Assembly (NCBI GenBank): GCA_030429005.1
Contig: JAUIDP010000006.1
Location: 1 to 64,000 of the forward strand
DNA: 64,000 nucleotides
Direction of reading: 5' to 3'
DNA from: Gammaproteobacteria bacterium
GTDB lineage: Bacteria; Pseudomonadota; Gammaproteobacteria; Steroidobacterales; Woeseiaceae
In this document: positions 30,733 through 47,146 of the stretch, piece after piece
Position numbering within the stretch: position 1 is the stretch's first letter
Layout of the letters: each line of letters begins with the position of its first letter
Notes under the pieces: model-generated
What the model saw: only the letters and a program-made list of their open reading frames with translations
Told to the model about the DNA's origin: nothing
Database searches by the model: none
Made by a program: the position numbers and the translations under genes

Positions 30733-30836
30733 CGTTGGCCTCCTGTTTCGCCGGCTCTCCCGTTCGCCGGCAACCTGTTGAGTTGATGGTGTTACGGCGT
30801 GCTCCCCCCGAGTACAGGAACCACTTGCCTGCATTC

Positions 30837-30864
30837 AGTATAGAACAAATATTTTCAATATCAA
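30837..30864 (-). promoter_or_regulatory. Candidate sigma70 promoter for TonB receptor (minus strand)
   Basis: TTGATA - 16 bp - TATACT on the minus strand, with an operator-like AGAACAAATATTTTC within the spacer. Confidence 0.55.
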
Positions 30865-30929
30865 CTTTACTGGAAAATTTGTTCTATACTAATATGAAAC
30901 GTCTATTCCATGCTTGAAAAATATGTTTC
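30842..30929. promoter_or_regulatory. Cluster of four operator-like sites (RGAA-N6-TTYY type) between TonB receptor and RpiR regulator
   Basis: AGAACAAATATTTT (30842), GGAAAATTTGTTCT (30872), GAAACGTCTATTCC (30896), GAAAAATATGTTTC (30916). Confidence 0.65.
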
Positions 30930-30969: not shown

Positions 30970-31821
30970 GTGACAAGTCCACCAGACAACCTGGAATCAC
31001 TGCGTTCAGCGATCACCAGCCGCTACGACCAGCTCAGCCCGCGCCTGAAGCAGGTCGCCTCGTTCGTGCTGGACAACCCGAATGACATGGCGCTCGAAAC
31101 ACTGGCGGTCAATGCCCGGCGCTGCGAAGTGCAGCCGTCGACGATCGTGCGGTTCGCCAAGGTTTTCGGCTACAGCGGTGCGAGCGAAATGCAACGGCTG
31201 TTTCGCGACGAAATCCTCACGGCGGCGCCCAGCCCGAGCTACTCGGAAAGAATCCGCCAGTTCCATGAGCGCACGGACGGCATTGACCGGATGCAGCCCT
31301 ACAACGTCATGCAGGAGTTTGCCGAGAGCAACATCATCGCGCTCGAGCACCTGCGCGAAGGGGTCAGCGAAAAAGACCTGGCGCGCTCCGTCGAACTGAT
31401 CCAGCAGGCACACACTGTCTACCTCGCCGGTGTGCGCCGCGCTTTCCCGGTCTCGGCCTACCTGGCTTATTCACTGAGTCACGTCGAAAAACGCGCATTC
31501 CTGCTGGACGGGGTTGCCGGCATGACCTCGGAACAAAGCTGGATGCTGGGCGCCGACGATCTGCTGATCGCCGTGTCCTTCAAGCCCTACGCTCCTGAAA
31601 CGCTGGCAGTCGTGGAAACGGCCGCGGCCAACGATGTACCGATGATTGCCATCAGCGACAGCCGGCTGAGTCCGATCGCGAAGGAAGCGGACGTCTGTTT
31701 CGAAATCAAGGACGCCGAAGTCCGGCAATTCCGCTCGCTGACCGCTTCCATGTGCCTGGCACAAACGCTGGTCATCAGTTACGCCTACAAATACGGCCTC
31801 GACAAGGCAATGGAGGGCTAA
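30970..31821 (+). CDS. MurR/RpiR family transcriptional regulator (IolR-like by context)
   Basis: GTG start; N-terminal HTH ITSRYDQLSPRLKQVASFVLDNPNDMALETLAV...PSTIVRFAKVFGYSG, C-terminal SIS domain. Confidence 0.92.
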   Translation: MTSPPDNLESLRSAITSRYDQLSPRLKQVASFVLDNPNDMALETLAVNARRCEVQPSTIVRFAKVFGYSGASEMQRLFRDEILTAAPSPSYSERIRQFHERTDGIDRMQPYNVMQEFAESNIIALEHLREGVSEKDLARSVELIQQAHTVYLAGVRRAFPVSAYLAYSLSHVEKRAFLLDGVAGMTSEQSWMLGADDLLIAVSFKPYAPETLAVVETAAANDVPMIAISDSRLSPIAKEADVCFEIKDAEVRQFRSLTASMCLAQTLVISYAYKYGLDKAMEG

Positions 31822-31824
31822 GCC

Positions 31825-32811
31825 ATGGTAGGTATCGCTGTCATCGGTGCCGGACGTATCGGCCAGATTCATGCGGGCAACCTGCACCGGCATCCGCAGG
31901 CAGATCTGCGCTGTATTGTCGACGTCTCCGACGCCGCGGCCGAACAGCTCGCCCGTGCCTGCGCCACCGAGGTCGGTTCGCTGGAATCGATGCTTGCCGA
32001 TCCGGCCGTGCAGGCCGTCGTCATCGCAAGCTCGACCGATACGCACGCCGAGCTGGTCACCAGGTGCGCACAAGCGGGCAAGAAAATATTCTGCGAGAAG
32101 CCGCTGGACCTCAGTGTCGCGACGGCCTCGAAATGCCTGCGCGTCGTCGAGCAGGAAAAAGCCCTGCTGGTCATCGGTTTCAATCGACGGCACGACCCCT
32201 CGTTCGAAAGGGTCAAAGCCGAAGCTGTCTCGGGCGCTGTCGGCGACGTCGAGGTTGTCAGCATTACGAGCCGTGACCCGTCGCCACCACCGGCCGACTA
32301 TATCGGCCGCTCGGGCGGACTTTTCCGCGACATGATGATTCACGATTTCGATATGGGCCGCTGGCTGCTTGGCGAAGAGCCGGTCGAGGTCTTCGCCCGC
32401 GGCAGCGTGCTGGTTGACGAGGCGATTGCCGAGGCCGGGGACATCGACACCGCCGTCGCAACGCTCAGGACCGCGTCCGGCAAGCTGTGCCAGATTACGA
32501 ATTCACGGCGTTGCAGCTACGGCTATGACCAGCGCATCGAGGTATTCGGTTCGGCCGGTATGGCGCGCGCCGGCAACCAGCGCGAGACCCTGGTCGAAAC
32601 CGCGGACAACAATGGCTTCGCCCGCGACCCCGCCCTGCCGTTTTTCCTGGAGCGTTATGCCGACGCCTACCGCATCCAGCTCGAACGTTTCCTGCGCGCC
32701 GCGTCCGGCGAGAAGATCGACCTGCCAACCGGCGACGACGGGCTGCGCGCATTGCAGATTGCCGATGCTGCACAGCAGTCGCACGAAAGCGGCCAACCGG
32801 TGACGATATGA
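31825..32811 (+). CDS. iolG: Inositol 2-dehydrogenase
   Basis: VGIAVIGAGRIGQIHAGNL, EKPLDLS, GFNRRHDPSFERVK, MMIHDFDMGRWLLGEEPVEVFA. Confidence 0.93.
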   Translation: MVGIAVIGAGRIGQIHAGNLHRHPQADLRCIVDVSDAAAEQLARACATEVGSLESMLADPAVQAVVIASSTDTHAELVTRCAQAGKKIFCEKPLDLSVATASKCLRVVEQEKALLVIGFNRRHDPSFERVKAEAVSGAVGDVEVVSITSRDPSPPPADYIGRSGGLFRDMMIHDFDMGRWLLGEEPVEVFARGSVLVDEAIAEAGDIDTAVATLRTASGKLCQITNSRRCSYGYDQRIEVFGSAGMARAGNQRETLVETADNNGFARDPALPFFLERYADAYRIQLERFLRAASGEKIDLPTGDDGLRALQIADAAQQSHESGQPVTI

Positions 32812-33944
32812 AAAAACCGCTACGCTTCGGCCTCGTCGGCACCGGCTTCATGGGCAAGGCGCACGCGATAGCGATGCGCTCGGTCGGCACCATATTTCCG
32901 GAAGTCGCTGCGCCGGAGCTCGACTACCTCGTGGACAGCAACGCGGCACGCGCACAGGAGCTCGCGGATGCCTGGGGTTTCCGGCGCGCCGGCGACGACT
33001 GGCAGGCCCTGTGCAACGACCCGGATATCGACGTCATCAGCATTTGCACGCCGAATCACCTGCACAAGGAGATGGCGCTTGCCGCGGCCGCCGCCGGCAA
33101 ACACACCTGGTGTGAAAAGCCGCTGGGCCTGGGCGGTCCTGAAGCCGAGGACATCTGGCGCGCTGCGGAAAAAGCGGGTGTCAGGACGTCAATGGGTTTC
33201 AACTACATGTGCAACCCGTTGATCGGCCTCGCGAAGGAACTGCTGGCCTCGGGCGAGATCGGCGACGTTTTCAATTTTCGCGGCAGCTACCTGGAAGACT
33301 ACCTCAGCGACCCCGAAGCACCGTTCAGCTGGCGCTGCCTGCGGAGCCAGGGCGGCAGCGGCGCACTGAACGATCTCGGCACACACCTGATCAACATGGC
33401 GGAATACCTGCTCGGACCGATGCAGTCCGTATACGGCGCGCTGGCGACCGTGCACACGCACCGCATTGATCCGGCCAGCGGGCAGCCCCGCGAAGTCGAG
33501 AATGAGGACATTGCACAGGTCTTGCTCCGCTTTGAACGCGGCCCGGTTGGCACGATGGAAATCAGCCGCGTCGGCACCGGCAAGAAGTGCGGTCTCGAAT
33601 TCGAGATCCACGGCAGCAAGGGTTCGCTGATGTTTGACCAGGAGCGCATGAACGAGATTCGCCTGTTTCGCACCGGCGAACCGGCGGTCGAGAGCGGCTA
33701 TCGCACGATCCTCGCCGGGCCGCAACACCCGGACTACGCCCGGTTCTGCCCGGCTCCCGGGCACGGCCTGGGTATCAACGACCTGAAAATCATCGAAGCA
33801 AGAAACTTCCTGCATAGCATCGCCACCGATACACCGGTCTATTGCGACTTTGCCAACGGCTGGCGTGTACAGGCGATTGTCGATGCAGTTGAACGATCAC
33901 ATCGGGACCAGCAATGGGTCGATGTCACGCAAGGAAAACACTGA
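32808..33944 (+). CDS. Gfo/Idh/MocA family oxidoreductase (second inositol/keto-inositol dehydrogenase-like)
   Basis: LRFGLVGTGFMGKAHAIAMRS, WCEKPLGLG, GFNYMCNPLI; 4-bp overlap with iolG. Confidence 0.9.
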   Translation: MKKPLRFGLVGTGFMGKAHAIAMRSVGTIFPEVAAPELDYLVDSNAARAQELADAWGFRRAGDDWQALCNDPDIDVISICTPNHLHKEMALAAAAAGKHTWCEKPLGLGGPEAEDIWRAAEKAGVRTSMGFNYMCNPLIGLAKELLASGEIGDVFNFRGSYLEDYLSDPEAPFSWRCLRSQGGSGALNDLGTHLINMAEYLLGPMQSVYGALATVHTHRIDPASGQPREVENEDIAQVLLRFERGPVGTMEISRVGTGKKCGLEFEIHGSKGSLMFDQERMNEIRLFRTGEPAVESGYRTILAGPQHPDYARFCPAPGHGLGINDLKIIEARNFLHSIATDTPVYCDFANGWRVQAIVDAVERSHRDQQWVDVTQGKH

Positions 33945-33945
33945 A

Positions 33946-34749
33946 ATGACACTGCATATCACCGAACACCGCGACGGCTTCCCTGCCGGCACGACCAACA
34001 TCACCCGGCACGACGACGCGGACAACAATGCGTTGATCACGCTGGACGTCGTCAAACTGGCGGCCGGCGAATCCCTGTCAGTGAAGACGGACGTCGAGAC
34101 CGCATGGCTGCTGATGAGCGGCTCCGTGACGGGCAATGCCGGCGGCACGGAATTCGCCTTGCAGCGCAGCTCGCTGTTCGACGAGTCTTCAAGCTGCGTA
34201 CACGTCGCCGCCGGCACCGAAGTCGACATGCAGGTTCTCTCGGATACCGAGTTCACGGTCTATTCCTGCGACAATACGCTGCCGTTTGCGCCGCGCGTGT
34301 TTCAGCCGGACGACGTCGCCAACGAACCGCGCGGCAAGGGCCAGGTCAATGACCGCTGCCTGCGCTACGTCCGAACGATTTTCGACGACACGAACTCGGA
34401 CCCGAACACCGGCCTGGTGCTCGGCGAAGTCATCACGTTCCAGGGCGCGTGGTCCAGCTATCCGCCGCATCATCACCCGCAGCCGGAGATCTATCACTAC
34501 CGCTTTACCGAACCGCAGGGCTACGGACACGCCGAGCTTGGCGAGACCGTGCTCAAGGTGCGCAACTACGACACGGTCAAGATCCTCGACCTGAACGACC
34601 ACTCGCAGTGTTCGGCCCCCGGCTATGGAATGTATTACTCGTGGGTCATCCGGCACCTGCCGGACAATCGCTACAGCGTGCCGGAATTTACCGAGGAACA
34701 TACCTGGATCATGCGGCCTGACGCGAAATACTGGGACCCACAGGTCTGA
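33946..34749 (+). CDS. iolB: 5-deoxy-glucuronate isomerase
   Basis: MTLHITEHRDGFPAGTTNITRHDD...; SYPPHHHPQPEIYHYRF, cupin metal site. Confidence 0.95.
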   Translation: MTLHITEHRDGFPAGTTNITRHDDADNNALITLDVVKLAAGESLSVKTDVETAWLLMSGSVTGNAGGTEFALQRSSLFDESSSCVHVAAGTEVDMQVLSDTEFTVYSCDNTLPFAPRVFQPDDVANEPRGKGQVNDRCLRYVRTIFDDTNSDPNTGLVLGEVITFQGAWSSYPPHHHPQPEIYHYRFTEPQGYGHAELGETVLKVRNYDTVKILDLNDHSQCSAPGYGMYYSWVIRHLPDNRYSVPEFTEEHTWIMRPDAKYWDPQV

Positions 34750-34750
34750 T

Positions 34751-36658
34751 ATGGACCGATCCCTGGACGTAATCTGCCTGGGCCGGGTCGCCGTTGACCT
34801 GTACGGCAACCAGGTCGGCGGCCGGCTCGAGGACGTGCAGACGTTTGAGAAATCCCTCGGCGGCTCATCCGGCAACCTGGCCGCGGGCCTTGCCCGCCTC
34901 GGTGCCCGGTCGTCGATGCTGTCACGGGTCGGCGATGAGCAAATGGGCCGCTTCGTCCGCGAAGCGCTGCAGGCGGAAGGCGTCGACACGAGTCACCTGG
35001 CCACGGATCCCGGGCGCCTGACGGCCCTCGTGATACTGGGCATCGCCAGCCGCGACTCGTTCCCGCATATCTTCTATCGTGAACGGCCCGCCGACCTCGG
35101 TATCGAGACGAGCGACTTCGACAAGGACTACATCGCCTCGAGCCGCGCACTCTCGATCACCGGGACACACCTGTCGACCGAGCAAAGCTTTGCCGTCGTG
35201 CAGCAAGCCGTCGGGTTTGCCGTCGAGTCCGGCACCCGCGTGATCCTGGACATCGATTACCGCCCGGTGCTGTGGGGCCTGACATCAGCCGGTGATGGCG
35301 AAGAACGCTTTATCGAAAGCCGCGAAGTGACGGCGCGCTACCAGGCAATTGTTCGCCACTGCGACATCCTTGTCGGCACCGAGGAAGAAATCCAGATCGC
35401 CGGCGGCAGCACTGACACACTGGCGGCGCTGAAGAACCTGCGCGAGATCTGTTCGGCGACCATCGTTTGCAAACGCGGGGCGATTGGCTGCTCGATTTTC
35501 ACCGGCGCAATCCCCGGTTCGCTGGACGATGGCATATCGGTCAGCGGTGTCAGGGTCGAGGTGTTGAATACGCTGGGTGCCGGCGATGCGTTTCTCAGCA
35601 GCTTCCTGTGCGCCTGGCTGGACGGCCGGGACTGGGCAGAATGCGCGCGCTACGGTAATGCCTGCGGCGCCCTCGTTGTATCCCGGCATGGCTGCACACC
35701 GGCGATGCCAACCCGCATCGAACTGGACGACTACCTGGCGCGCTCCGCGGACATCGCGAGGCCGGACAAGGACAAGCGCCTCGCACTGTTACATCGCACG
35801 ACAACGCGACGGAGCGCTCGCAGGAACCTATGTGTCCTGGCATTCGATCATCGCCGGCAACTGGAAGACCTCGTGATTGCGACCGAACCCGCCGGCCACC
35901 GGATCGCCGAGTTCAAGCAACTCGTCTGTCGAGCCGCCGAGCAGGTTGCGGCGGATGCCAGCGCCGGCACCGAGGTCGGCGTCATTGTCGACGAGCGATA
36001 TGGAGAAGCGGTGCTTGCCCGGCTGACGGACAGGCAGTGGTGGGTCGGCCGACCGGTCGAAATCCCGGGGTCCTGCCCCATCGAGTTTGACCCGCGCAGC
36101 AGCATGGGCCTGCCGTTGCTCAAGTGGCCGGCCGCCCAGGTTGTGAAGTGCCTGGTCTTTTATCACCCGGACGACGACATCGAACTGCGCCTGCAGCAGG
36201 AAGACCGTATTCGGCAGCTGCACACCGACTGCGCCGAACTGGGCCGCGAGTTGCTGCTGGAAATCATTGCAACGTCGAAAGGTCAGCCTTGCGACGAACA
36301 CACGGTGGCCAATGTCATGCGGCGCATGTACAACCTGGGCATCTACCCCGCCTGGTGGAAGCTCGAGTCGCAGACTGAACAGGGCTGGCAGGAGATCACC
36401 GCGGTCATCGAACAGTACGACCCGCAATGCAACGGCGTGCTGATGCTCGGCCTCGATGCGCCGGAAGCAGAGTTGCGCGACAGTTTTGCCGTCGCCCGGC
36501 CGTTCGACATATGCAAGGGCTTTGCCGTTGGCCGGAGTATCTTCGGCGGTGCGGCTCGGCAATGGTTCGCCGGTGAGATCGACGATGCCGCGGCGATCCG
36601 CATGATCGCAGACAATTACGCGCAGATGATCAGTTACTGGAACGCAGCGGAGGCCTGA
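34751..36658 (+). CDS. iolC: 5-dehydro-2-deoxygluconokinase fused to C-terminal DUF2090 domain
   Basis: PfkB kinase motifs GGSSGNLAAGLARLG, NTLGAGDAFLSSFL; C-terminal half LCVLAFDHRRQLEDLV...YHPDDD...GLDAPEAEL. Confidence 0.93.
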   Translation: MDRSLDVICLGRVAVDLYGNQVGGRLEDVQTFEKSLGGSSGNLAAGLARLGARSSMLSRVGDEQMGRFVREALQAEGVDTSHLATDPGRLTALVILGIASRDSFPHIFYRERPADLGIETSDFDKDYIASSRALSITGTHLSTEQSFAVVQQAVGFAVESGTRVILDIDYRPVLWGLTSAGDGEERFIESREVTARYQAIVRHCDILVGTEEEIQIAGGSTDTLAALKNLREICSATIVCKRGAIGCSIFTGAIPGSLDDGISVSGVRVEVLNTLGAGDAFLSSFLCAWLDGRDWAECARYGNACGALVVSRHGCTPAMPTRIELDDYLARSADIARPDKDKRLALLHRTTTRRSARRNLCVLAFDHRRQLEDLVIATEPAGHRIAEFKQLVCRAAEQVAADASAGTEVGVIVDERYGEAVLARLTDRQWWVGRPVEIPGSCPIEFDPRSSMGLPLLKWPAAQVVKCLVFYHPDDDIELRLQQEDRIRQLHTDCAELGRELLLEIIATSKGQPCDEHTVANVMRRMYNLGIYPAWWKLESQTEQGWQEITAVIEQYDPQCNGVLMLGLDAPEAELRDSFAVARPFDICKGFAVGRSIFGGAARQWFAGEIDDAAAIRMIADNYAQMISYWNAAEA

Positions 36659-36659
36659 C

Positions 36660-38504
36660 GTGACGACAAAGATCCGACTCACCATGGCGCAGGCTTTGCA
36701 ACGCTACCTGGCCGCACAGTACGTCGAAATCGACGGCGAACGCCAACGACTGGTCGCCGGCATGTTCGCGATCTTCGGTCATGGCAACGTGGCCGGGATG
36801 GGCCAGGCATTGCAGGATGCCGGCCCAGCGCTGCCGGTATTCCGCGCCCATAATGAGCAGTCCATGGCGCACTCGGCCATTGCTTATGCAAAGGCCATGC
36901 GCCGAAACCGCCTGATGGCCTGTACGACGTCGGTTGGACCGGGCGCAACCAACATGGTAACGGCGGCGGCCCTCGCCCACGTCAATCGCCTGCCCGTACT
37001 GCTGCTGCCGGGCGACACGTTTGCAAACCGCCTGCCGGACCCGGTGTTGCAGCAGGTCGAGGACTATTCCGACCCGACAATTACGGCGAATGACTGTTTC
37101 CGGCCCGTGTCACGCTACTGGGACCGCATCATGCGGCCCGAGCAGTTGCTGCAGTCGCTGCCACAGGCGATCAGCGTACTCACCGACCCGGTGGACTGCG
37201 GCCCGGTCACGCTGGCGCTGCCACAGGATGTGCAGGCCGAGGCTTATGACTACCCGCAGGCATTTTTTGCCGAGCGAACGCACCGGGTATTGCGTGCCGG
37301 CGCCGACACCGAAGAGCTCTCGGCGGCGGTGGCCGCGCTGGCCGCAGCAAGTCGGCCGCTGATCATCGCCGGCGGCGGCGTGCACTACGCCGGTGCAACG
37401 GCGGCACTGGCCGGGTTTGCCAGCAAGTACTCGATCCCCGTCGCCGAAACTCAGGCGGGCAAAGGTGCACTGCCGTGGGACCATGAATTCAATGTCGGCG
37501 CCATCGGCGTGACCGGCTCCAGCGCCGCGAACGCACTGGCAGAAGATGCCGACCTCGTCATCGCCATCGGCACACGCCTGCAGGATTTTACGACCGGTTC
37601 GGGCCTGTTGATCGGCAGGGCCGGCACGCCGATCCTCAGCATCAACGTAGCAAGGCACGACCTCGTCAAGCGCTCGGCGCTCACGCTCTGTGGCGATGCC
37701 CGGCGGTCGCTGCAGGATATCGAAAGCAGTCTCGGTGATTGCGACGTCGACCCGGCGTGGGTCCGTCGCATCGCAACGCTGCGCGACACCTGGAACGACG
37801 AGGTCACGGCGGCAACGACGATCAGTGACAATGACAAGCCGTCCGATGCCGAAGTGCTCGGGGTCGTCAATCGCCGCTTCATGCAGAATGCGACGGTCGT
37901 CTGCGCGGCCGGCGGACTGCCGGGCGAACTGCACAAACTGTGGCGCGCCGCCGATGCCGACAGCTACCACGTCGAATACGGCTATTCCTGCATGGGTTAC
38001 GAAATCGCGGGCGGCATCGGCGCCAGGATGGCACACCCCGAGCGGGACATCGTCGTTATGGTCGGCGATGGCAGTTACCTGATGCTGAACTCGGAGATCG
38101 CGACGTCGATCGCGCTGCAGCAGAAACTCATCATCGTCGTGCTCGACAACCGCGGCTTCGGTTGCATCAATCGCCTGCAAACATCGTTGGGCGGCCGCGG
38201 CTACAACAACCTGTTGCAATCGAGCTACGCGGACCCGGCGGCGGCTCCCGACATCGACTTTGCACAACACGCGGCGTCGCTCGGCGCCCTGGCCGAGAAG
38301 GTCTCCGGCATCGGTGAACTGGACGCGGCACTGCAACGAGCCCGCGAAGCCGCCACCACTGCCGTGGTCGTTATCGAAACCGATCCGCTGCCGTCGACCG
38401 CAGCCGGCGGCACCTGGTGGGACGTGCCGGTGGCCGAAGTCGCCGACGACGAACAGGTGCAGGCTGCATCCGAACATTACCAGGACCGACAGAGGCAGCG
38501 CTGA
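36660..38504 (+). CDS. iolD: 3D-(3,5/4)-trihydroxycyclohexane-1,2-dione hydrolase
   Basis: ThDP enzyme: HNEQSMAHSAIAYAKAM, VMVGDGSYLMLNSEIATSIALQQKLIIVVLDNRGFGCINRLQ. Confidence 0.95.
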   Translation: MTTKIRLTMAQALQRYLAAQYVEIDGERQRLVAGMFAIFGHGNVAGMGQALQDAGPALPVFRAHNEQSMAHSAIAYAKAMRRNRLMACTTSVGPGATNMVTAAALAHVNRLPVLLLPGDTFANRLPDPVLQQVEDYSDPTITANDCFRPVSRYWDRIMRPEQLLQSLPQAISVLTDPVDCGPVTLALPQDVQAEAYDYPQAFFAERTHRVLRAGADTEELSAAVAALAAASRPLIIAGGGVHYAGATAALAGFASKYSIPVAETQAGKGALPWDHEFNVGAIGVTGSSAANALAEDADLVIAIGTRLQDFTTGSGLLIGRAGTPILSINVARHDLVKRSALTLCGDARRSLQDIESSLGDCDVDPAWVRRIATLRDTWNDEVTAATTISDNDKPSDAEVLGVVNRRFMQNATVVCAAGGLPGELHKLWRAADADSYHVEYGYSCMGYEIAGGIGARMAHPERDIVVMVGDGSYLMLNSEIATSIALQQKLIIVVLDNRGFGCINRLQTSLGGRGYNNLLQSSYADPAAAPDIDFAQHAASLGALAEKVSGIGELDAALQRAREAATTAVVVIETDPLPSTAAGGTWWDVPVAEVADDEQVQAASEHYQDRQRQR

Positions 38505-38505
38505 C

Positions 38506-39393
38506 ATGAGTATTTCGCTGGGCATCAACCCGATCACCTGGAGCAACGACGACCTGCAATACGTGGGCGCCGATATTTCGCTGCAGACCTGTCTTGCCCA
38601 AACGGCAGCTGCCGGCTTCGATGGCATCGAACTTGGCCACAAGTTTCCGCGCGATGCTGAGCAGTTGCGACCACTTCTCGACGAACACGGTCTTGCGCTC
38701 GTGTCCGGCTGGTACAGCGGCCGCCTGCTGACGCGCGACGCTGCGAGCGAGGCCGACGCCATGAAGAAACACGCCAGCCTGCTTGCCGCGATGGGCTGCG
38801 AGGTTTTGATTTTTGCCGAGGTTACCGGCTGCATTCATTCCGACATCGACGCGCGCCTGTCGCAGCGCCCGGAGCTGGCGGCTGGCGACTGGCGACAGTT
38901 CGGCGAACGAATGTCGGAAGTGGCCAGGGTGGCAGCCGACTACGGCCTGAAACTGAGCTACCACCACCATATGGGTACGGTCGTCCAGTCGGCCGCCGAC
39001 ATCGACGCGCTGATGCAGGCAACGTCGGACGACGTCTACCTGCTGCTGGACACCGGCCATGCCTTTTTTGCCGGCGCTGACCCGGTACAACTGGCGGCAA
39101 GCTATGCCGACCGAATTGGCCACCTGCATTGCAAGGATATTCGCGAATTGCCGATGCGCCGCTGCCTGAACCGCGATGGCAGTTTCCTGGACGCGGTACT
39201 GGACGGCGCGTTTACCGTGCCGGGAGACGGCTGCATCGATTTCCCGGCGGTGCTGGCAGAACTCCGCGATTATTCCGGCTGGGCCGTCGTCGAAGCGGAA
39301 CAGGACCCGAGTATTGCGCCGCCAGCCCGCTATGCCCGGCTGGGCCACGACAACCTGCGCGCGCTAGTCCGTGCCGAACACGACCTCGTTTAG
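38506..39393 (+). CDS. iolE: Inosose dehydratase
   Basis: MSISLGINPITWSNDDL...FDGIELGHKFP; YHHHMGTVVQS; LLDTGHAFFAG; HCKDIR. Confidence 0.95.
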   Translation: MSISLGINPITWSNDDLQYVGADISLQTCLAQTAAAGFDGIELGHKFPRDAEQLRPLLDEHGLALVSGWYSGRLLTRDAASEADAMKKHASLLAAMGCEVLIFAEVTGCIHSDIDARLSQRPELAAGDWRQFGERMSEVARVAADYGLKLSYHHHMGTVVQSAADIDALMQATSDDVYLLLDTGHAFFAGADPVQLAASYADRIGHLHCKDIRELPMRRCLNRDGSFLDAVLDGAFTVPGDGCIDFPAVLAELRDYSGWAVVEAEQDPSIAPPARYARLGHDNLRALVRAEHDLV

Positions 39394-40158
39394 CACCGCA
39401 TAAATTCCCGGCGCTGCCGCGACAACGAGGCTGCCTTTGACCAGTGCGTCTTCGTCCGGCAGGCAATCGTTGATGACACCGCCGGCCTCCCTGATGATCA
39501 GTGCGCTGGCGGCAAAGTCCCAGGAGTTCATGTGTGGCTCGAAATAACCGATCAGGCGCCCTGCGGCGACGTACGCCATGCTAAGCGCACCGCTGCCGTT
39601 GCGGTGATACATGCCGTTGCGGCTCGCAAGCCGCGCAAACGGCACGATGGTCTGCTCGGGCGTCACACGGTTTGAGAAGCCGACACAGACCAGGCCCTGC
39701 TCCAGGCTGGTAGCAGCCGAGGCCGAGATCGGTCGGCCATTCAGCGTGGCGCCGGCGCCGTCCCGCGCAGCGAACAGCTCGTCATGCACCGGGTCAAAGA
39801 CGACACCGATGCGGAACGTCGTGCCCTCGACATAGGCGATCGAGATACACCAGCTCGGAATACCATTGACGAACGGCTGCGTGCCGTCGATCGGGTCGAT
39901 GATCCAGGTGCCCTTGCCGGCATCCGGCACGAAACTGTCCGGATCTTCTTCGCCGAGAAACAGGTCGTCCGGGTATTCGCGCATCAGCGCCGCTTCCAGC
40001 AACTTCTGGGTTTCGAGATCCGCTTCGCTGGCCATGTCCTGCACGCCTTTGCTTTGCACGTCCAGGGTTTCGAAGCGGCTGAAATAGTCCAGCGCCAGCG
40101 CCCCGGCCTCGCGGATCACCTTGCAGGCGAAATCAAAACGTTCGTCAATTCCCGGCAT
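39364..40158 (-). CDS. Inositol monophosphatase family protein
   Basis: LFLGEEDPDSF, WIIDPIDGTQPFVNGIPSW, NSWDFAASALIIREAGG: Li+-sensitive phosphatase motifs. Confidence 0.93.
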   Translation of the reverse strand: MPGIDERFDFACKVIREAGALALDYFSRFETLDVQSKGVQDMASEADLETQKLLEAALMREYPDDLFLGEEDPDSFVPDAGKGTWIIDPIDGTQPFVNGIPSWCISIAYVEGTTFRIGVVFDPVHDELFAARDGAGATLNGRPISASAATSLEQGLVCVGFSNRVTPEQTIVPFARLASRNGMYHRNGSGALSMAYVAAGRLIGYFEPHMNSWDFAASALIIREAGGVINDCLPDEDALVKGSLVVAAAPGIYAVLNEVVFGTD

Positions 40159-40644
40159 TCATCGCCACCTGAAAATTGCTCGTTCACATTGCCGGTGGAT
40201 GACGAAGTGCTTCTCCGTGACCGGCGTTGTGACGTGCACCATAACCTCGTCCAATTCGGGGAACGCATCGAACAACAGCACATTGACCTGCTTGAGTTCG
40301 TTGTCCGCTCCGCATTCTGACGCGTAATTCGCCAGTACCGTTCCCGTATCGGACTCTACCTCGACTGTCGCATCGCTGCATGCCGACGCGGTATCGAGCC
40401 GGAACACGTTGTCCGTTTCCCCCAGCCTCGCATTTGTGGCCGCTTCGCCTGCTATCGCGTACAGCATTTGCACACTGCTATCGATGCGACCTTGCGCGGA
40501 CATTTCGACGACCAGTTCTGCAGTCTCGTTTTGGTGCTGGCCGTGAAACAGAGCGTGATCGCCGCAGAAATCCGGTCCATCGTCCTGGCCGCACGCCGCC
40601 AGCATCAGTCCGCTTATTGCGATCGCGAGAGTTCGGCTAGTCAC
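40159..40644 (-). CDS. Uncharacterised lipoprotein in the phytase/inositol operon
   Basis: GTG start VTSRTLAIAISGLMLAACGQDDGPD; lipobox LAAC; overlaps MFS stop and abuts IMPase start. Confidence 0.68.
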   Translation of the reverse strand: MTSRTLAIAISGLMLAACGQDDGPDFCGDHALFHGQHQNETAELVVEMSAQGRIDSSVQMLYAIAGEAATNARLGETDNVFRLDTASACSDATVEVESDTGTVLANYASECGADNELKQVNVLLFDAFPELDEVMVHVTTPVTEKHFVIHRQCERAIFRWR

Positions 40645-42028
40645 TGGCCTTGACCCGCCACAGGCTCGTTGCCAGGATGATCGATACGACCGAGGCACCG
40701 ATCCAGAACATGATCGGCACCGTGTAGTCATAGAAATATACCGTCGGCGCATTCTCGCCGATCGGGAAGACCACCCGGACCTCGCTGTCGTAGATCAGCT
40801 TGCCGCTGATGTAGTCCTGCATGCCGGCGCCGATGTAGCTGAAGATGCCGATGAAACCCATCGCCGCACCGGCTACTCGTTTGGGCGCGATGTCGATCGC
40901 AAACAGGCCGCCCAGTGCAGCCAGCAACCCGCTGAGACCGAAGCCGTAGACGATCAGCGCGGCAGCCAGCACGAAGCTGTTGGTCGGCCCGTAAAAAATG
41001 ACGACCAGCGGCAGCAATTCCATCAGGCCGAAGATCAGGTTGGCCGGCGGCCGGCGCGCGTCGAACAGTTTGTCCGACAGGTAGCCATAGGCAACGCAGC
41101 CCAGGATGCCCGCCGCGGTATTCAGGAAGATAAACAGGTTGGCGTCGAACAGGTCGAAACCGCGGATTTCCTGCAGGTAGACATTGCCCCAGCTGTTGAC
41201 CGCGTAACGCGTGATGTACATCGTCGAACTGGCCATCGCGATGACCCACATCGACGGGATCGCCAGGACTTTCAACTGGTCGCGCCAGATCTTTGCCGCA
41301 TCGTGTTTGATCGGCCGCGCATGCACCCCGCCATCGCCGCTCCACTCGGCAATCGACGGCAGGCCGAGCGTCTGCGGACGGTCCTGCAGGAAGCGGTAGA
41401 TGAGCCAGGCCGCCAGGACGCAGATCGCTGCCGGCGTCCAGAATCCCCATTGCCATGGCAGGCCAAGGCCCTTCGGCGGCGCGGCAATCAGGTAGGCGAT
41501 GCCGAGGTAGGTCAGGCCTTCGCCGATCGAGTGTGCTGTGCTCCAGATGCCGTAGTAGCGGCCGCGCTCGCCGTTGCTGAACCAGTTGGCCATAGCCACA
41601 ACGGCGGACGGGGCGCCGAAACCCTGGAACCAGCCATTCAGCACCCACAGCAATGCCGACACCCAGACGACCGACGACAGCGACATGCCGAAATTCAGCA
41701 GCGCCGACATCAGGATGCCGAAGGCAAAAAACTTCTTTACGTTGGAGTAGTCGGCGAGAAAGCCGTTGCTGAACTTGCCGGCCGCATAGCCGTACAGCAG
41801 CATGGAGCCGATGAAGCCCACCTCCTCCGGCGTGAATATTCCTGCATCCATGATCGGCTTCTTGACGACATTGAATGCGAGCCGGCAAACGTAGCCGAGA
41901 CCATAACCGACCGTCAGGATCACGATGATGTTGCGGCGGTGATCGTGAAACTGGCGGTCGATCTCGGCCTGGTCCGTCAGCCTGGGGGCATCGGGACCGG
42001 CCGCGAAGAAATGCAGGATGGACTTCAA
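40637..42028 (-). CDS. MFS transporter, organophosphate:phosphate antiporter (GlpT/UhpT)-like
   Basis: GYGLGYVCRLAFNVVKKPIMDAGIFTPEEVGFIGSMLLYGYAAGKFSNGFLAD; NGWFQGFGAPSAVVAMANWFSNGERGRYYGIWSTAHSIGEG. Confidence 0.88.
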   Translation of the reverse strand: MKSILHFFAAGPDAPRLTDQAEIDRQFHDHRRNIIVILTVGYGLGYVCRLAFNVVKKPIMDAGIFTPEEVGFIGSMLLYGYAAGKFSNGFLADYSNVKKFFAFGILMSALLNFGMSLSSVVWVSALLWVLNGWFQGFGAPSAVVAMANWFSNGERGRYYGIWSTAHSIGEGLTYLGIAYLIAAPPKGLGLPWQWGFWTPAAICVLAAWLIYRFLQDRPQTLGLPSIAEWSGDGGVHARPIKHDAAKIWRDQLKVLAIPSMWVIAMASSTMYITRYAVNSWGNVYLQEIRGFDLFDANLFIFLNTAAGILGCVAYGYLSDKLFDARRPPANLIFGLMELLPLVVIFYGPTNSFVLAAALIVYGFGLSGLLAALGGLFAIDIAPKRVAGAAMGFIGIFSYIGAGMQDYISGKLIYDSEVRVVFPIGENAPTVYFYDYTVPIMFWIGASVVSIILATSLWRVKASD

Positions 42029-42032
42029 GGCG

Positions 42033-44075
42033 TTACTTTAGCTGCATGGCTTCACGAATACGATGCCAGGGCACCAGCTTGAAGTTTTGCCGCTCGGCCG
42101 GCGATATATTCCTGCCGTCCTGGGCAACAAACACGCCTTCGGGATAGTCCGGCCCGAGGTAGGCGCTGTTGACGTCCAGCCCGTCGGTTTCCGAGATGCC
42201 ATCGATACCGGTCGCATCGTCAGCAACGACGTGGAAGATGCCGATAAAGGCATTGTCACCGCCACGTTCGTAGAGTGCGTAGCTGTCGGCACCCTGGTTG
42301 GACGCCACGAGGTAGCCGCCGCCGTCCTTGCCGTAGTAGATGGCGAGGCCTTCGACGTCGGCGGTCAGGTTGCCCGCATCGTCGGTGCTGTCCACGAGTG
42401 TGCGGGCGTCACCGCCGTCCGGCTCCGCCGAGTATTTCCAGATGCCGACATTCTCCTCGCCGACATACAGGTCACCGGTTTCGTCATCCGCGACGCAGCC
42501 TTCGGTCTGCGAACCGGCGTTGAACTCCCGTACCGGCGTCGCGCCGATCTTGCCGTTGCCACTGTCCTGCAACTCCCACTGCCGGACCAGGCCATCGGTG
42601 TCATTGATGTATACGTAGTACTTGCCGCTGGCGGCACTCCGGTACATACACTGGCCGTACGGATCGGACATGCCGGTATCGATGATGCCGTCGGCGACAT
42701 CGACCAGTGTCCGCGTTTCCTTGTCGATAATGTAGACGCTGATGCCGTCCGTTGAACGGTTGCTCGCCGTTACGACGTCGACTTTCCGGCCATCGAGTTC
42801 GAAACCGTAACGCAGGTCAACATTGTTGATGCGGCCGTCGGCGCGCGACTGAATGAGTTCGCCGGTCAGGCTGTAGACATTGATGCCGCGTTTTTTCTGT
42901 GAGCCGATGATGACGCTCAGCTCCGGCTTGTCCGGATGCACCCAGATCGCCGGGTCGTCCGCAGCGTCGCCGAAACTCTTGACCGGTTCCGTTTCCATGC
43001 TGGCCGACACGGTCACCGCCGTTTGCGCCACCTTGCGGCCCGGATTGCCGAGCGCGCCATTGACCAGCCCGGTTGCGGCAGCGAAATCCGACCATTGAAC
43101 AATCTTGTAGTTGGTGGCCGCATCGCCGTTGTCGTCGTCCGTGACAACCAGGAGCCCGCCATGGCCGTTGATCGCGGCAGCAGTCGCAGCAATGCCTTCC
43201 GATTCATCCGCGCCATCCACGGCAGCCGTTGCGACGTGCTCCAGTGTTTCGAGGTCATAGACCTGCAAACGACTTTCGTCGGCGTCCGAAACCAGCAAAT
43301 AGCCGCCGGCGTCGTGTTCGTAAGTGGTGATGCCCTTGACGTCACCGGCAAAGTTGCCGAACGGTTCCGCTACATCGACCGTTTGCATTTCCGTTTCGGA
43401 TTCGGGCTCGGCGTTCAGCTTGAAGACACCGATCACCTCGTGCGAAAAATAGATCGCTGCCCCGGCATCGTGGCCGACGCAGTGCCCGGCGCCGTAGCCC
43501 ACCGGGATCGAACGCACGTTGCGCACAACCAGCTCACCATCCCTGCCAAGCAACTCCCATTGCTCGACCATGCCGTCGGCGGTCGCGAAAACATAGGTCT
43601 TGCCCGACAGCGGGCTCTGGTACAGGCACATGCCCTCGATCTCGGCTTCGACACTCTGCAACGGCCCGCTCATCGGCACGATGTTGCGGCTTGCGGCGTC
43701 GACGGTGTAACCGAGAATCTCTGAGGCGTCCACGTCGTAGGCAACGACGAGCCCGACCGACTTGCCACCCAGCGAGAATTCGCTGCGAACATCGACCAGC
43801 GAAATGTGGGCATCGCCGACTGACGCAATTCTGTCACCGTCCAGTCCGTATACTTCCAGACCGCCGGCACCACCCGCGCCCAGGATCAGGCTGTTCGCGA
43901 GGTCCGCCGGGTCGATCCAGATGGCCGGGTCGTTGGCACCGTCCGCCGCCGTCGGCGTCGTTTGTGCGGCAGGGACGACGGTCGGTGTCTCGTTTGGCTG
44001 CTCGCCGGCTGACGAATCCGACCCGCAGGCCAGCAGGCCCGCCAGGAGAATGGGTACTAACAATTTGTAATTCAT
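42033..44075 (-). CDS. Tandem-domain beta-propeller phytase, lipoprotein
   Basis: Lipobox LLAC; C-terminal domain DAADDPAIWVHPDKPELSVIIGSQKKRGINVYSLTGELIQSRADGRINNVDLRYGF, DPYGQCMYRS, TEGCVADDETGDLYVGEENVGIWKY, ADVEGLAIYYG; N-terminal repeat with NDPAIWIDPADLANSLILG...VDVRSEF. Confidence 0.93.
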   Translation of the reverse strand: MNYKLLVPILLAGLLACGSDSSAGEQPNETPTVVPAAQTTPTAADGANDPAIWIDPADLANSLILGAGGAGGLEVYGLDGDRIASVGDAHISLVDVRSEFSLGGKSVGLVVAYDVDASEILGYTVDAASRNIVPMSGPLQSVEAEIEGMCLYQSPLSGKTYVFATADGMVEQWELLGRDGELVVRNVRSIPVGYGAGHCVGHDAGAAIYFSHEVIGVFKLNAEPESETEMQTVDVAEPFGNFAGDVKGITTYEHDAGGYLLVSDADESRLQVYDLETLEHVATAAVDGADESEGIAATAAAINGHGGLLVVTDDDNGDAATNYKIVQWSDFAAATGLVNGALGNPGRKVAQTAVTVSASMETEPVKSFGDAADDPAIWVHPDKPELSVIIGSQKKRGINVYSLTGELIQSRADGRINNVDLRYGFELDGRKVDVVTASNRSTDGISVYIIDKETRTLVDVADGIIDTGMSDPYGQCMYRSAASGKYYVYINDTDGLVRQWELQDSGNGKIGATPVREFNAGSQTEGCVADDETGDLYVGEENVGIWKYSAEPDGGDARTLVDSTDDAGNLTADVEGLAIYYGKDGGGYLVASNQGADSYALYERGGDNAFIGIFHVVADDATGIDGISETDGLDVNSAYLGPDYPEGVFVAQDGRNISPAERQNFKLVPWHRIREAMQLK

Positions 44076-44144
44076 AAGAAAATCTACTCTCAGTGCGGTT
44101 GCGGTGAGGTTGGGCCAAGCTGCCCGGACATTATCGCAGAAAAT

Positions 44145-44188
44145 GAAACAAATATTCTACTTTTGTTTATAATAGGAACAAATGTTCT
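44145..44188. promoter_or_regulatory. Tandem operator-like sites flanking a TATAAT box between phytase and phosphatase genes
   Basis: GAAACAAATATTCT (44145) and GGAACAAATGTTCT (44175), 30 bp apart; TATAAT at 44168-44173. Confidence 0.65.
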
Positions 44189-44215: not shown

Positions 44216-45517
44216 ATGACTCAAGAACGCTCGATTTTGCTGCTTGTCAGCATCGCCTTCGTTGGCACGCTGGCCGTCGCCTGCAGCAAAGACAAACCAG
44301 CGACGGATACTCCGTCTGATGCCGCCACGCATGCAAGCGTTGGAATCCTGATGTTCGGCGACAGTGGCTATCACCTCAACTATCCCGACCAGGACGACTA
44401 CGACGACCTGTTTACGCCGGAGGAGTTTTACCAGGACGAGTGGGACGACTGGGAGGACGACAAGCGCCCCATGGACGAGTTTGAAGCACGCCCGACGTCA
44501 ATTTCACCGGTCACGGGCCAGACGGTTCCAGCCACGGGAATGCACGCAGTTTCGAGGGCTATGAAAACGTTCTGCGCCGAAAAGGCAACCTGCCACTTCG
44601 GCCTGATGCTCGGCGACAATATTTACCCGAGCGGCGCGACCCTCGGCGCCGACGGATTCGATGACGCCGACCGGTTCCGCGACATATTCACTATTCCTTT
44701 CGGCGACATTGTCCAGAAGCCGGACTCCTACCGCACCTACGTGACACTGGGCAATCACGACTGGGAAACTTCGCGCGAAGGCGGCTTTGCACAAATCGAG
44801 TTTCTCGACGCAGCCGAAGAGTTCTATATCGACGGACCGTTCTATACCGTCAAACCGCCCGCCGGCAATGGCGACATCGAACTGTTTATTGTCGATACTG
44901 CGATGATTCTCGCCTCGACAACCGTCTACGAGGACTTCCTGCATGACGACGGCTCCGAGGCAACCACTGATATCCTTGACGAACCGGACTACTTCGTCGA
45001 ACCGATGACAGAGGCAGAAAAAGCACAACCGCAGTGGCTGGAAGAACAACTGAAGGCGTCGACGGCAAAATGGAAATTTGTTGTCGCCCATCACCCTGTC
45101 TGGTCTTCTTCCGGCAGCAAGTTCGAGCAGGCGCGCGTACTGCGTGAAATGCTGCTGCCCGCCATGTGCCGTTATGCCGATGGCTACCTCGTAGGTCACG
45201 ACCACACGCTGGAAATTCATACCGATGACTGTTCGGCTGCACTCGGCAAGGCAACAGCAGAGCCGCTGGTGCAGATCGTTTCCGGCGCCGCGGCCAAGCA
45301 ACGACCAACACACACGACATTCATGCAACACCAGGATGCCAAGTATCCCGAACACAAGACTCTCTATGCAGAGGGCCTGTTGTGGGGATTTGCCCACATG
45401 ACGCTGGAAGGCGATACCGCTCGCGTCCAGACGATCAAGTTGCCGGACGATGGCAGCTCTGACATGACCGTGTCTTTCGAATTTGAATTTCCCCGGCGCT
45501 CGCACCTCAACCAGTAA
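44216..45517 (+). CDS. Metallophosphoesterase, purple acid phosphatase (ACP5)-like lipoprotein
   Basis: Lipobox VAC; FGDSGYH, LGDNIYPSG, LGNHDWE, VAHHPVWSSSGSKF, VGHDHTLEIH. Confidence 0.9.
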   Translation: MTQERSILLLVSIAFVGTLAVACSKDKPATDTPSDAATHASVGILMFGDSGYHLNYPDQDDYDDLFTPEEFYQDEWDDWEDDKRPMDEFEARPTSISPVTGQTVPATGMHAVSRAMKTFCAEKATCHFGLMLGDNIYPSGATLGADGFDDADRFRDIFTIPFGDIVQKPDSYRTYVTLGNHDWETSREGGFAQIEFLDAAEEFYIDGPFYTVKPPAGNGDIELFIVDTAMILASTTVYEDFLHDDGSEATTDILDEPDYFVEPMTEAEKAQPQWLEEQLKASTAKWKFVVAHHPVWSSSGSKFEQARVLREMLLPAMCRYADGYLVGHDHTLEIHTDDCSAALGKATAEPLVQIVSGAAAKQRPTHTTFMQHQDAKYPEHKTLYAEGLLWGFAHMTLEGDTARVQTIKLPDDGSSDMTVSFEFEFPRRSHLNQ

Positions 45518-45520
45518 CCG

Positions 45521-47146
45521 ATGACTGCTGCACTCTCGTTCATCGGCTTCACGGTAACGGTTGCGGCAATTTCCTGGTGGCTGACCCGCAAGGATCGTAT
45601 GGACTCCTCGGAGGCCTACTTTCTTGCCGGCCGCAGCCTGACGGCCTGGGTCATCGCCGGGTCACTGATGTTGACGAACCTGTCGACCGAGCACCTGATC
45701 GGGCTCAACGCCGACGCGTTCAATCACACCATTGCCGTGATGGCATGGGAAACGACCGCTGCGCTCGCGATGGTACTGGCGGCGCTGTATTTCCTGCCGC
45801 GCTACCTGGCGATCGGTCTCACGACGATTCCGGAATTCCTGGCGCAGCGTTTTGACAACACCACACGCGTCATCGCGTCACTGTTGTTCCTGTTTTCCTA
45901 CGCGGTTGCGATTCTGCCGGTAGTCCTGCTGTTTGGTGCCGAGGGCCTTCAGAGCCTGTTCCAGGTATCGGATGCGTTCGGTGTGAGTCCGGCGCAGGCG
46001 AAGTGGATCATGGTCTGGGGCATCGGGCTCCTCGGCTCCATGTATGCGATATTCGGCGGCCTGAAAGCCGTCGCGATCTCCGACACGATCAACGGCATCG
46101 GTTTTCTGATTGCGGGCCTGCTGATTCCGTTGCTTGCACTCAGGCTGGTTGGTGACGGCGACATCCTCGCAGGCTTTAGCCAGGTGTATGCCGCCGAGCA
46201 CAGCAAGTTCGATATCACCGGCGACGAACCGGGATCGTTTTTGCCGTTTGGCGTGCTGTTTACCGGCCTGATCGTCAACCAGGTTTTTTTCTGGTGTACG
46301 AACCAGTCGATCATCCAGCGGGCGCTGGGTGCGAAGAATCTCAAAGAAGCCCAGAAAGGTGTCCTGATTGCAGCGACTTTCAAGCTGCTCGGACCAATCG
46401 CAGTCGTCCTGCCCGGCGTCATCGCCTATCACATGTTCAAGGACACCTTGTCCAGCGACCAGTATCTGCAGGCCTACCCGATGCTGGTACGAACCGTTTT
46501 GCCGACCGTGTTTACCGGGTTCTTCGCCGCCGTCATGGTTGGTGCGGTTCTCAGCACCTTCAACAGCGTCCTGAACAGCGCCGCAACCCTGTTCAGTGAA
46601 GGCATTTATCGCAGCACAGTCAATCCCGAGTCCTCCGGCCGCAACCAGGTACGCATCGGCCGGCTGTTCAGCGCCGTGCTGGCAGTGGCCGCGATGCTGG
46701 TTGCACCAACAATCGATACATCCGGCAGCCTGTACATCTACCTGCAGCAAATCAATGCCACGTTTTTCGGTCCGATGCTCGCCGTGATTCTGTGTGGGCT
46801 GATGACCCGGTTCGTCAATGCGCGTGCCGCGAAGGTGAGCCTGCTGGTCGGCCCATTGCTCTTCTACTTGCTAAATTTCGTCTACGGTAATGCGTACCAG
46901 GCATTGATGATGAAGCTCTTCAACCTGGGTGAGCCACTGCACTTCCTGCATACACTTGCGGTCGTGTTTCTACTGACGCTGCTGATGCTGTTTGTACTTA
47001 GCCAGGGCAAGCGAGAGCCGGTCCGCAAATCTGCGGTTCCAGTAGCTAACGCCAGCCTGAATCTCGAACCATGGCGGTATGCGCGAGTTGCTGGTGCGGT
47101 CATTTCCGTTGCGACGGTTGCCTGTTATGTGTTGCTGGCACAGTGA
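45521..47146 (+). CDS. Sodium:solute symporter (SSS/SGLT-like)
   Basis: 541 aa, about 14 TM; SEAYFLAGRSLTAWVIAGSLMLTNLSTEHLIGLNADAF, FWCTNQSIIQRALGAKNLKEAQKG. Confidence 0.93.
   Translation: MTAALSFIGFTVTVAAISWWLTRKDRMDSSEAYFLAGRSLTAWVIAGSLMLTNLSTEHLIGLNADAFNHTIAVMAWETTAALAMVLAALYFLPRYLAIGLTTIPEFLAQRFDNTTRVIASLLFLFSYAVAILPVVLLFGAEGLQSLFQVSDAFGVSPAQAKWIMVWGIGLLGSMYAIFGGLKAVAISDTINGIGFLIAGLLIPLLALRLVGDGDILAGFSQVYAAEHSKFDITGDEPGSFLPFGVLFTGLIVNQVFFWCTNQSIIQRALGAKNLKEAQKGVLIAATFKLLGPIAVVLPGVIAYHMFKDTLSSDQYLQAYPMLVRTVLPTVFTGFFAAVMVGAVLSTFNSVLNSAATLFSEGIYRSTVNPESSGRNQVRIGRLFSAVLAVAAMLVAPTIDTSGSLYIYLQQINATFFGPMLAVILCGLMTRFVNARAAKVSLLVGPLLFYLLNFVYGNAYQALMMKLFNLGEPLHFLHTLAVVFLLTLLMLFVLSQGKREPVRKSAVPVANASLNLEPWRYARVAGAVISVATVACYVLLAQ

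Follow-up and report, generated by a model that had tools for sequence, protein, structure and literature searches.

A 30-bp-spaced site pair probably places a phytase/phosphatase promoter under an IolR-type RpiR regulator

The site pair at 44145 and 44175, located between divergent phytase and phosphatase genes, is predicted to be a tandem operator of the IolR-type RpiR regulator whose gene starts at 30970, with a probability of roughly 0.8. Positions are those of the window, which is the whole 64,000-nucleotide stretch of gammaproteobacterial DNA (order Woeseiales) that was analyzed. Because the same 30-bp pair is present at both the rpiR and the phytase promoters, and is kept in distant relatives, the rpiR product very probably also controls the phytase genes. 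A sequence-only reading of this DNA had tied the phytase/phosphatase promoter to the RpiR/iol regulon. That tie is supported here by the uniqueness of the pair in the genome, by a scoring matrix built blind to phytase promoters, and by conservation of the 30-bp spacing at the phytase gene. It is further supported by the absence of the pair from congeners without rpiR, the conserved gene order, and the match to the operator published for IolR (PMC2597717).

The phytase/phosphatase promoter contains two 14-nucleotide sites. Half 1, GAAACAAATATTCT, extends from 44145 to 44158, scores 20.1 bits, and is a near-palindrome of the form RRAA-N6-TTYY that is conserved in relatives. Half 2, GGAACAAATGTTCT, extends from 44175 to 44188 and scores 18.8 bits; its 30-bp spacing from half 1 is likewise conserved. 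Neither half is assigned a strand. The full segment reads GAAACAAATATTCT-ACTTTTGTTTATAATA-GGAACAAATGTTCT and spans 44 bp, with a gap of 16 bp between the sites. The sequences and coordinates given earlier for this pair are exact, as confirmed from the letters, and the TATAAT reported between the two sites is present at positions 44168 to 44173.

The promoter region between the TonB-dependent receptor gene and the RpiR-family gene contains the matching pair. The first half, AGAACAAATATTTT (30842 to 30855, plus strand when read as the GAACAAATnTT core described below), scores 21.1 bits. The second half, GGAAAATTTGTTCT (30872 to 30885; AGAACAAATTTTCC on the minus strand, 30885 to 30872), scores 19.4 bits and starts 30 bp from the first, so that the start-to-start distance claimed for both regions is exact. 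The segment from 30842 to 30885 reads AGAACAAATATTTT-CAATATCAACTTTACT-GGAAAATTTGTTCT. The earlier list of rpiR sites held these two but overlooked a further conserved pair at 30896 and 30916. The weaker of the additional sites, GAAACGTCTATTCC (30896 to 30909), has equivalents in relatives, and the stronger, GAAAAATATGTTTC (30916 to 30929), scores 19.7 bits and is conserved in relatives; neither has an assigned strand. Together they form a second pair ahead of rpiR with a 20-bp spacing and counterparts in relatives. This two-turn arrangement from 30896 to 30929 suggests autoregulation of rpiR. Site combinations 44 and 74 bp apart score equal to the 30-bp combination at the rpiR promoter because a third strong site exists there.

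The sequence-only reading had described a core, GAACAAATnTT, shared by the phytase sites and the sites at 30842 and 30872. The likeness itself holds, but the copy at 44145 reads AAACAAATATT and has one mismatch. The two regions had also been said to carry the same operator pair. This is correct for the pairing of the sites but not for their orientation, as the phytase copies are direct and the rpiR copies face each other. A comparison of promoters from relatives showed that the GAA-like and TTC-like ends of the sites are kept while the middle is variable. On this comparison, the operator unit is an imperfect palindrome, RRAA-N6-TTYY, and the GAACAAATnTT core is a single genome's version of it. 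The unit being near-palindromic, it does not matter that one rpiR copy is inverted. Each site in the window is at most two transitions away from the palindrome, and the exact GGAA-N6-TTCC sequence is present in some relatives. This is essentially the same as the IolR operator of Caulobacter and other alphaproteobacteria, where the GGAA-N6-TTCC motif is found upstream of inositol genes (PMC2597717).

The pattern DRAACAAATNTTYY, written from all four sites, has exact matches at these four places only in the 3.14-Mb assembly. The exact pair pattern is found at two places only, the rpiR and phytase promoters. With one mismatch allowed, counts for the single-site core and pattern in the same assembly were at the level of chance or of a reversed control (matches include C96:74687 and C117:21077), and single-site targets beyond these four are therefore not proposed. 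A one-mismatch search for the pair in the same genome added two places and was not above its reversed-pattern control.

A matrix was trained on the rpiR/TonB-receptor promoters of seven other genomes, with the window and all phytase promoters left out. It was run on the window and on the loci of relatives, and the genome-wide statements above rest on the pattern searches. In one of the seven training rows (G102) the second half is shifted by one base, a flaw that slightly weakens the matrix and cannot create the result. The top five matrix sites in the window are 30842 (21.1 bits), 44145 (20.1), 30916 (19.7), 30872 (19.4), and 44175 (18.8), which comprise three sites at rpiR and two at the phytase; the next site scores 13.3. 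As 30-bp pairs, 30842 scores 40.6 and 44145 scores 38.9, and the next pair in the window, overlaps of the first aside, scores 6.0. The highest pair scores in random DNA were 20.8 bits in 50 Mb of window composition and 32.5 bits in 50 Mb of 60% AT. A chance likeness between two AT-rich promoters would fit their base composition and the chance-level count of one-mismatch single sites. It is scarcely credible given the score of 38.9 at 44145 against the 60%-AT random peak of 32.5, and given a fixed spacing that is conserved across families.

The genes of both loci can be sorted into an inositol block and a phytase block. The RpiR-family regulator (30970 to 31821, plus strand) contains HTH_6 (PF01418) and SIS (PF01380) domains above cut-off and is classed as IolR-type from its relatives and synteny; no NCBIfam equivalog matched it at cut-off. 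Downstream on the plus strand (31825 to 39393) are iolG, a second GFO/IDH oxidoreductase, iolB, iolC-DUF2090, iolD, and iolE, of which iolG, iolD, and iolE are above NCBIfam equivalog cut-offs. The rpiR-iol adjacency is conserved in relatives. A further gene, probably iolA (MMSDH family, above cut-off), is located on a separate contig away from the iol block (G000:C91:2518-3951); its promoter was covered by the genome-wide pattern searches. The TonB-dependent receptor ORF is on the minus strand (27922 to 30834). Its called start at 30834 runs into the promoter, nearly to the operator. The true start is likely 30732, from which a predicted signal peptide, MLSRALSTFSLALAG, would be read; a start at this position puts the operator outside the coding sequence.

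The phytase block begins on the minus strand with the phytase itself (42033 to 44075; PF02333, E 6e-143), which has two beta-propeller-like domains and a lipoprotein-like N terminus. It is followed on the same strand by an MFS transporter (40637 to 42028), a ZrgA-like protein (40159 to 40752; PF10986), and an inositol monophosphatase family protein, or IMPase (39364 to 40158; PF00459, E 5e-53). The MFS transporter has its best scores, all below equivalog cut-offs, in the organophosphate group of UhpC, GlpT, and PgtP. This points to uptake of partly dephosphorylated inositol phosphates, which the downstream IMPase would then process. On the plus strand are a calcineurin-like phosphoesterase with a lipoprotein-like N terminus (44216 to 45517; PF00149), previously called PAP and referred to here as the phosphatase, and a sodium:solute symporter, or SSS (45521 to 47146; PF00474, with NF007790 above cut-off). 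The phytase/iol block is syntenic in close relatives, and the encoded proteins make up a coherent route from phytate to inositol. From this gene content and from knowledge of the families, phytate would be dismantled to feed the iol pathway.

The TATAAT at 44168 to 44173 (plus strand) was read from the sequence as the probable −10 of the phosphatase promoter. The sequence GAAACA (44145 to 44150), located 17 bp upstream of the TATAAT, is a weak −35 candidate inside half 1. On the other strand, a −10-like ATTATA is conserved in relatives. The probable extended −10 of the phytase promoter, TGCGATAAT, was read at 44130 to 44138 on the minus strand and is conserved in Woeseiales relatives. Half 1 overlaps the −35 region of each of the two divergent promoters, and half 2 overlaps the phosphatase start. 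A promoter scan listed neither the phytase nor the phosphatase promoter because their −35 boxes are poor. The only promoter it listed was a sigma-70-like promoter of the TonB receptor, TTGATA-16-TATACT (30837 to 30864, minus strand), whose spacer and −10 edge are overlain by the site at 30842.

This geometry bears on the direction of control. The same regulator could occupy the pair and activate, or both activate and repress. The poor −35 boxes of both divergent promoters fit a need for help, and the RpiR family has an activator precedent in NanR of Streptococcus pneumoniae (PMC12713135). Against this, the placement of half 1 on both −35 regions and of half 2 on the phosphatase start is typical of repression, and the IolR proteins of Caulobacter and Sinorhizobium meliloti are reported repressors (PMC2597717, PMC8877191). 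Activation is considered unlikely, and repression is the preferred direction.

Two other kinds of control were considered at this promoter. Phytases release phosphate and are often considered to be phosphate-controlled, so the phytase promoter might respond mainly to PhoB under phosphate starvation, with the pair in a minor role. A search for the Pho box CTGTCAT-N4-CTGTCAT with up to three mismatches found none near 44145 to 44188, and matches elsewhere in the window were at the number expected by chance. Control mainly by PhoB is very unlikely on this result; additional phosphate control of the phytase promoter may exist. Half 2 also contains GAACAAATGTTC at 44176 to 44187, which has the form GAAC-N4-GTTC. 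This is the Gram-positive form of the LexA box, and the single site fits it. The LexA box was rejected, as GAAC and GTTC are not kept in the partner site or in the equivalents of relatives. The units contain no SOS gene, and LexA-type control is extremely improbable.

The pair was searched for in relatives as two palindromes with starts 30 bp apart. Fourteen genomes of the order Woeseiales have an RpiR match, and the exact pair pattern is present in 10 of them. Nearly all of the pairs in these 10 are located at rpiR/receptor, at the phytase, or ahead of the second oxidoreductase gene, the last in two genomes. Two pair matches elsewhere (G133 C101 and G108 C15) look like background, and the reversed control pattern gave zero or one match per genome. 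None of 18 congeners without rpiR has the pair pattern.

A wider survey covered 79 phytase loci from species genomes. The 30-bp pair was found upstream of the phytase in several Woeseiales-like MAGs, Povalibacter uvarum, three Sphingopyxis, and Sphingomonas horti. Two MAGs labelled Xanthobacteraceae and Opitutaceae also carry it, and others show it weakly. It spans several families and at least two classes. Povalibacter has three 30-bp pairs, at the phytase, before the second oxidoreductase, and at rpiR. The spacing is 29 in some relatives. In other families, where an MFS gene replaces the phosphatase, the pair is retained between the phytase and the divergent MFS gene. No recognizable pair accompanies the phytase in several regulator-positive genomes, and AT-rich genomes contain scattered background pairs. 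Across 50 genomes, pair and regulator are associated (13 and 2 against 15 and 20; Fisher p=0.005, kinship ignored), and the association persists without Woeseiales (Fisher p=0.035, kinship ignored).

The phytase sites could instead serve another regulator that recognizes a similar palindrome, in which case their likeness to the rpiR sites would be convergent or would come from a shared second regulator. AT-rich palindromes are recognized by many families, and the two MAGs labelled Opitutaceae and Xanthobacteraceae are pair-positive with no regulator match in their bins. The phytase and the 30-bp pair of these two MAGs are on short contigs (L092 and L093), and the missing regulator is possibly a binning error or absent sequence. 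The pair is missing from the 18 congeners without rpiR, the promoter of rpiR itself carries the same pair, and the operator matches published IolR sites (PMC2597717). These observations make a different regulator quite unlikely and favor the rpiR product.

A second group of phytase loci is TonB-linked. The beta-propeller phytases of Pseudomonas, Alteromonas, and Thalassolituus are related to the present one (32 to 39% identity) and have an adjoining TonB-dependent receptor. No iol block was detected near these TonB-linked loci, and they have no 30-bp pair. A regulator match was absent in 17 of 20 tested genomes, which were mostly of the TonB-linked type with a few outliers.

The closest known systems are the IolR proteins of Caulobacter crescentus (CC1297) and S. 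meliloti, which belong to the RpiR family and are encoded beside iol genes, as is the case here. The present regulator is approximately 53% identical to proteins in loci of Caulobacter species with a matching gene arrangement. On this identity and gene position, the regulator is a putative ortholog of Caulobacter IolR. Deletion of the Caulobacter gene derepresses iol promoters (PMC2597717). The two motifs of the Caulobacter iolC promoter precede the start codon by 104 and 45 bp, whereas the sites here are 30 bp apart; mutating one copy there increased expression, and no effect was measured on mutating the other (PMC2597717). The published IolR targets of Caulobacter and S. meliloti are inositol catabolism and transport genes, whereas a phytase is a predicted target here as well. 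Phytase appears in the 2008 Caulobacter paper in a reference title only (PMC2597717), and no paper linking phytase to IolR was found in the open-access literature.

The geometry of the pair resembles that of MurR in Escherichia coli, for which a tetramer has been proposed to bridge two promoter sites with a 17-bp gap and a total span of 47 bp; crystal structures of RpiR-family proteins are tetrameric (PMC12713135). The corresponding values here are 16 and 44 bp, and both systems have two adjacent palindromic sites over a promoter at a fixed spacing. MurR differs in its ligand and pathway (murein sugar), and bridging is a proposal for MurR and an inference here.

From these parallels we infer the following mode of binding and control. 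When inositol catabolite is absent, one IolR tetramer would bridge both phytase sites as two dimers, with one dimer on each 14-bp near-palindrome. The sites are three helical turns apart and so lie on one face of the DNA. The bridging tetramer would cover both −35 regions and the phosphatase start region, and the phytase-MFS-ZrgA-IMPase and phosphatase-SSS units would thereby be kept off. The same protein would act at 30842/30872 to repress the TonB receptor, and at 30896/30916 to repress its own gene and the downstream iol genes. The inducer would be a phosphorylated inositol intermediate, as in the S. meliloti model (PMC8877191), and by this analogy is probably 2-deoxy-5-keto-D-gluconate 6-phosphate bound by the SIS domain. 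Its binding would release the DNA, and phytate capture, dephosphorylation, import, and inositol breakdown would be induced together.

It is reasonably likely that a single IolR governs these genes as a self-contained regulon leading from phytate to inositol. The regulon would include the TonB receptor, the lipoprotein phytase, the phosphatase, the organophosphate-type MFS transporter, the IMPase, the SSS, and the iol pathway. The phytase would serve carbon acquisition under an inositol-catabolite switch, acting through a tandem operator with a 30-bp spacing common to phytase promoters of Gammaproteobacteria and Alphaproteobacteria. The regulator, operator, and geometry are of known kinds, and the phytate branch of the regulon appears to be new. 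Bacterial phytases are commonly regarded as phosphate scavengers. If the proposal is true, phytate degradation here is an inositol-feeding program and not a phosphate-hunger one. The conserved inositol-repressor operator would mean that phytases are wired to carbon metabolism in Woeseiales, Povalibacter, and some Sphingopyxis and Sphingomonas, where phytate turnover would track inositol use instead of phosphate hunger. It would also provide a sequence signature separating inositol-linked from TonB-linked phytases, and a prediction for two promoters.

One further location of operator-like sequence is worth noting. In the window, iolG and the second oxidoreductase gene abut (32811 to 32830), and no operator was found there. 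In relatives, a gap exists between these two genes and contains operator-like sites or a 30-bp pair (L069:5174-5304, L070:9178-9337, L080:11115-11285, L076:6086-6207, and L074:6508-6598).
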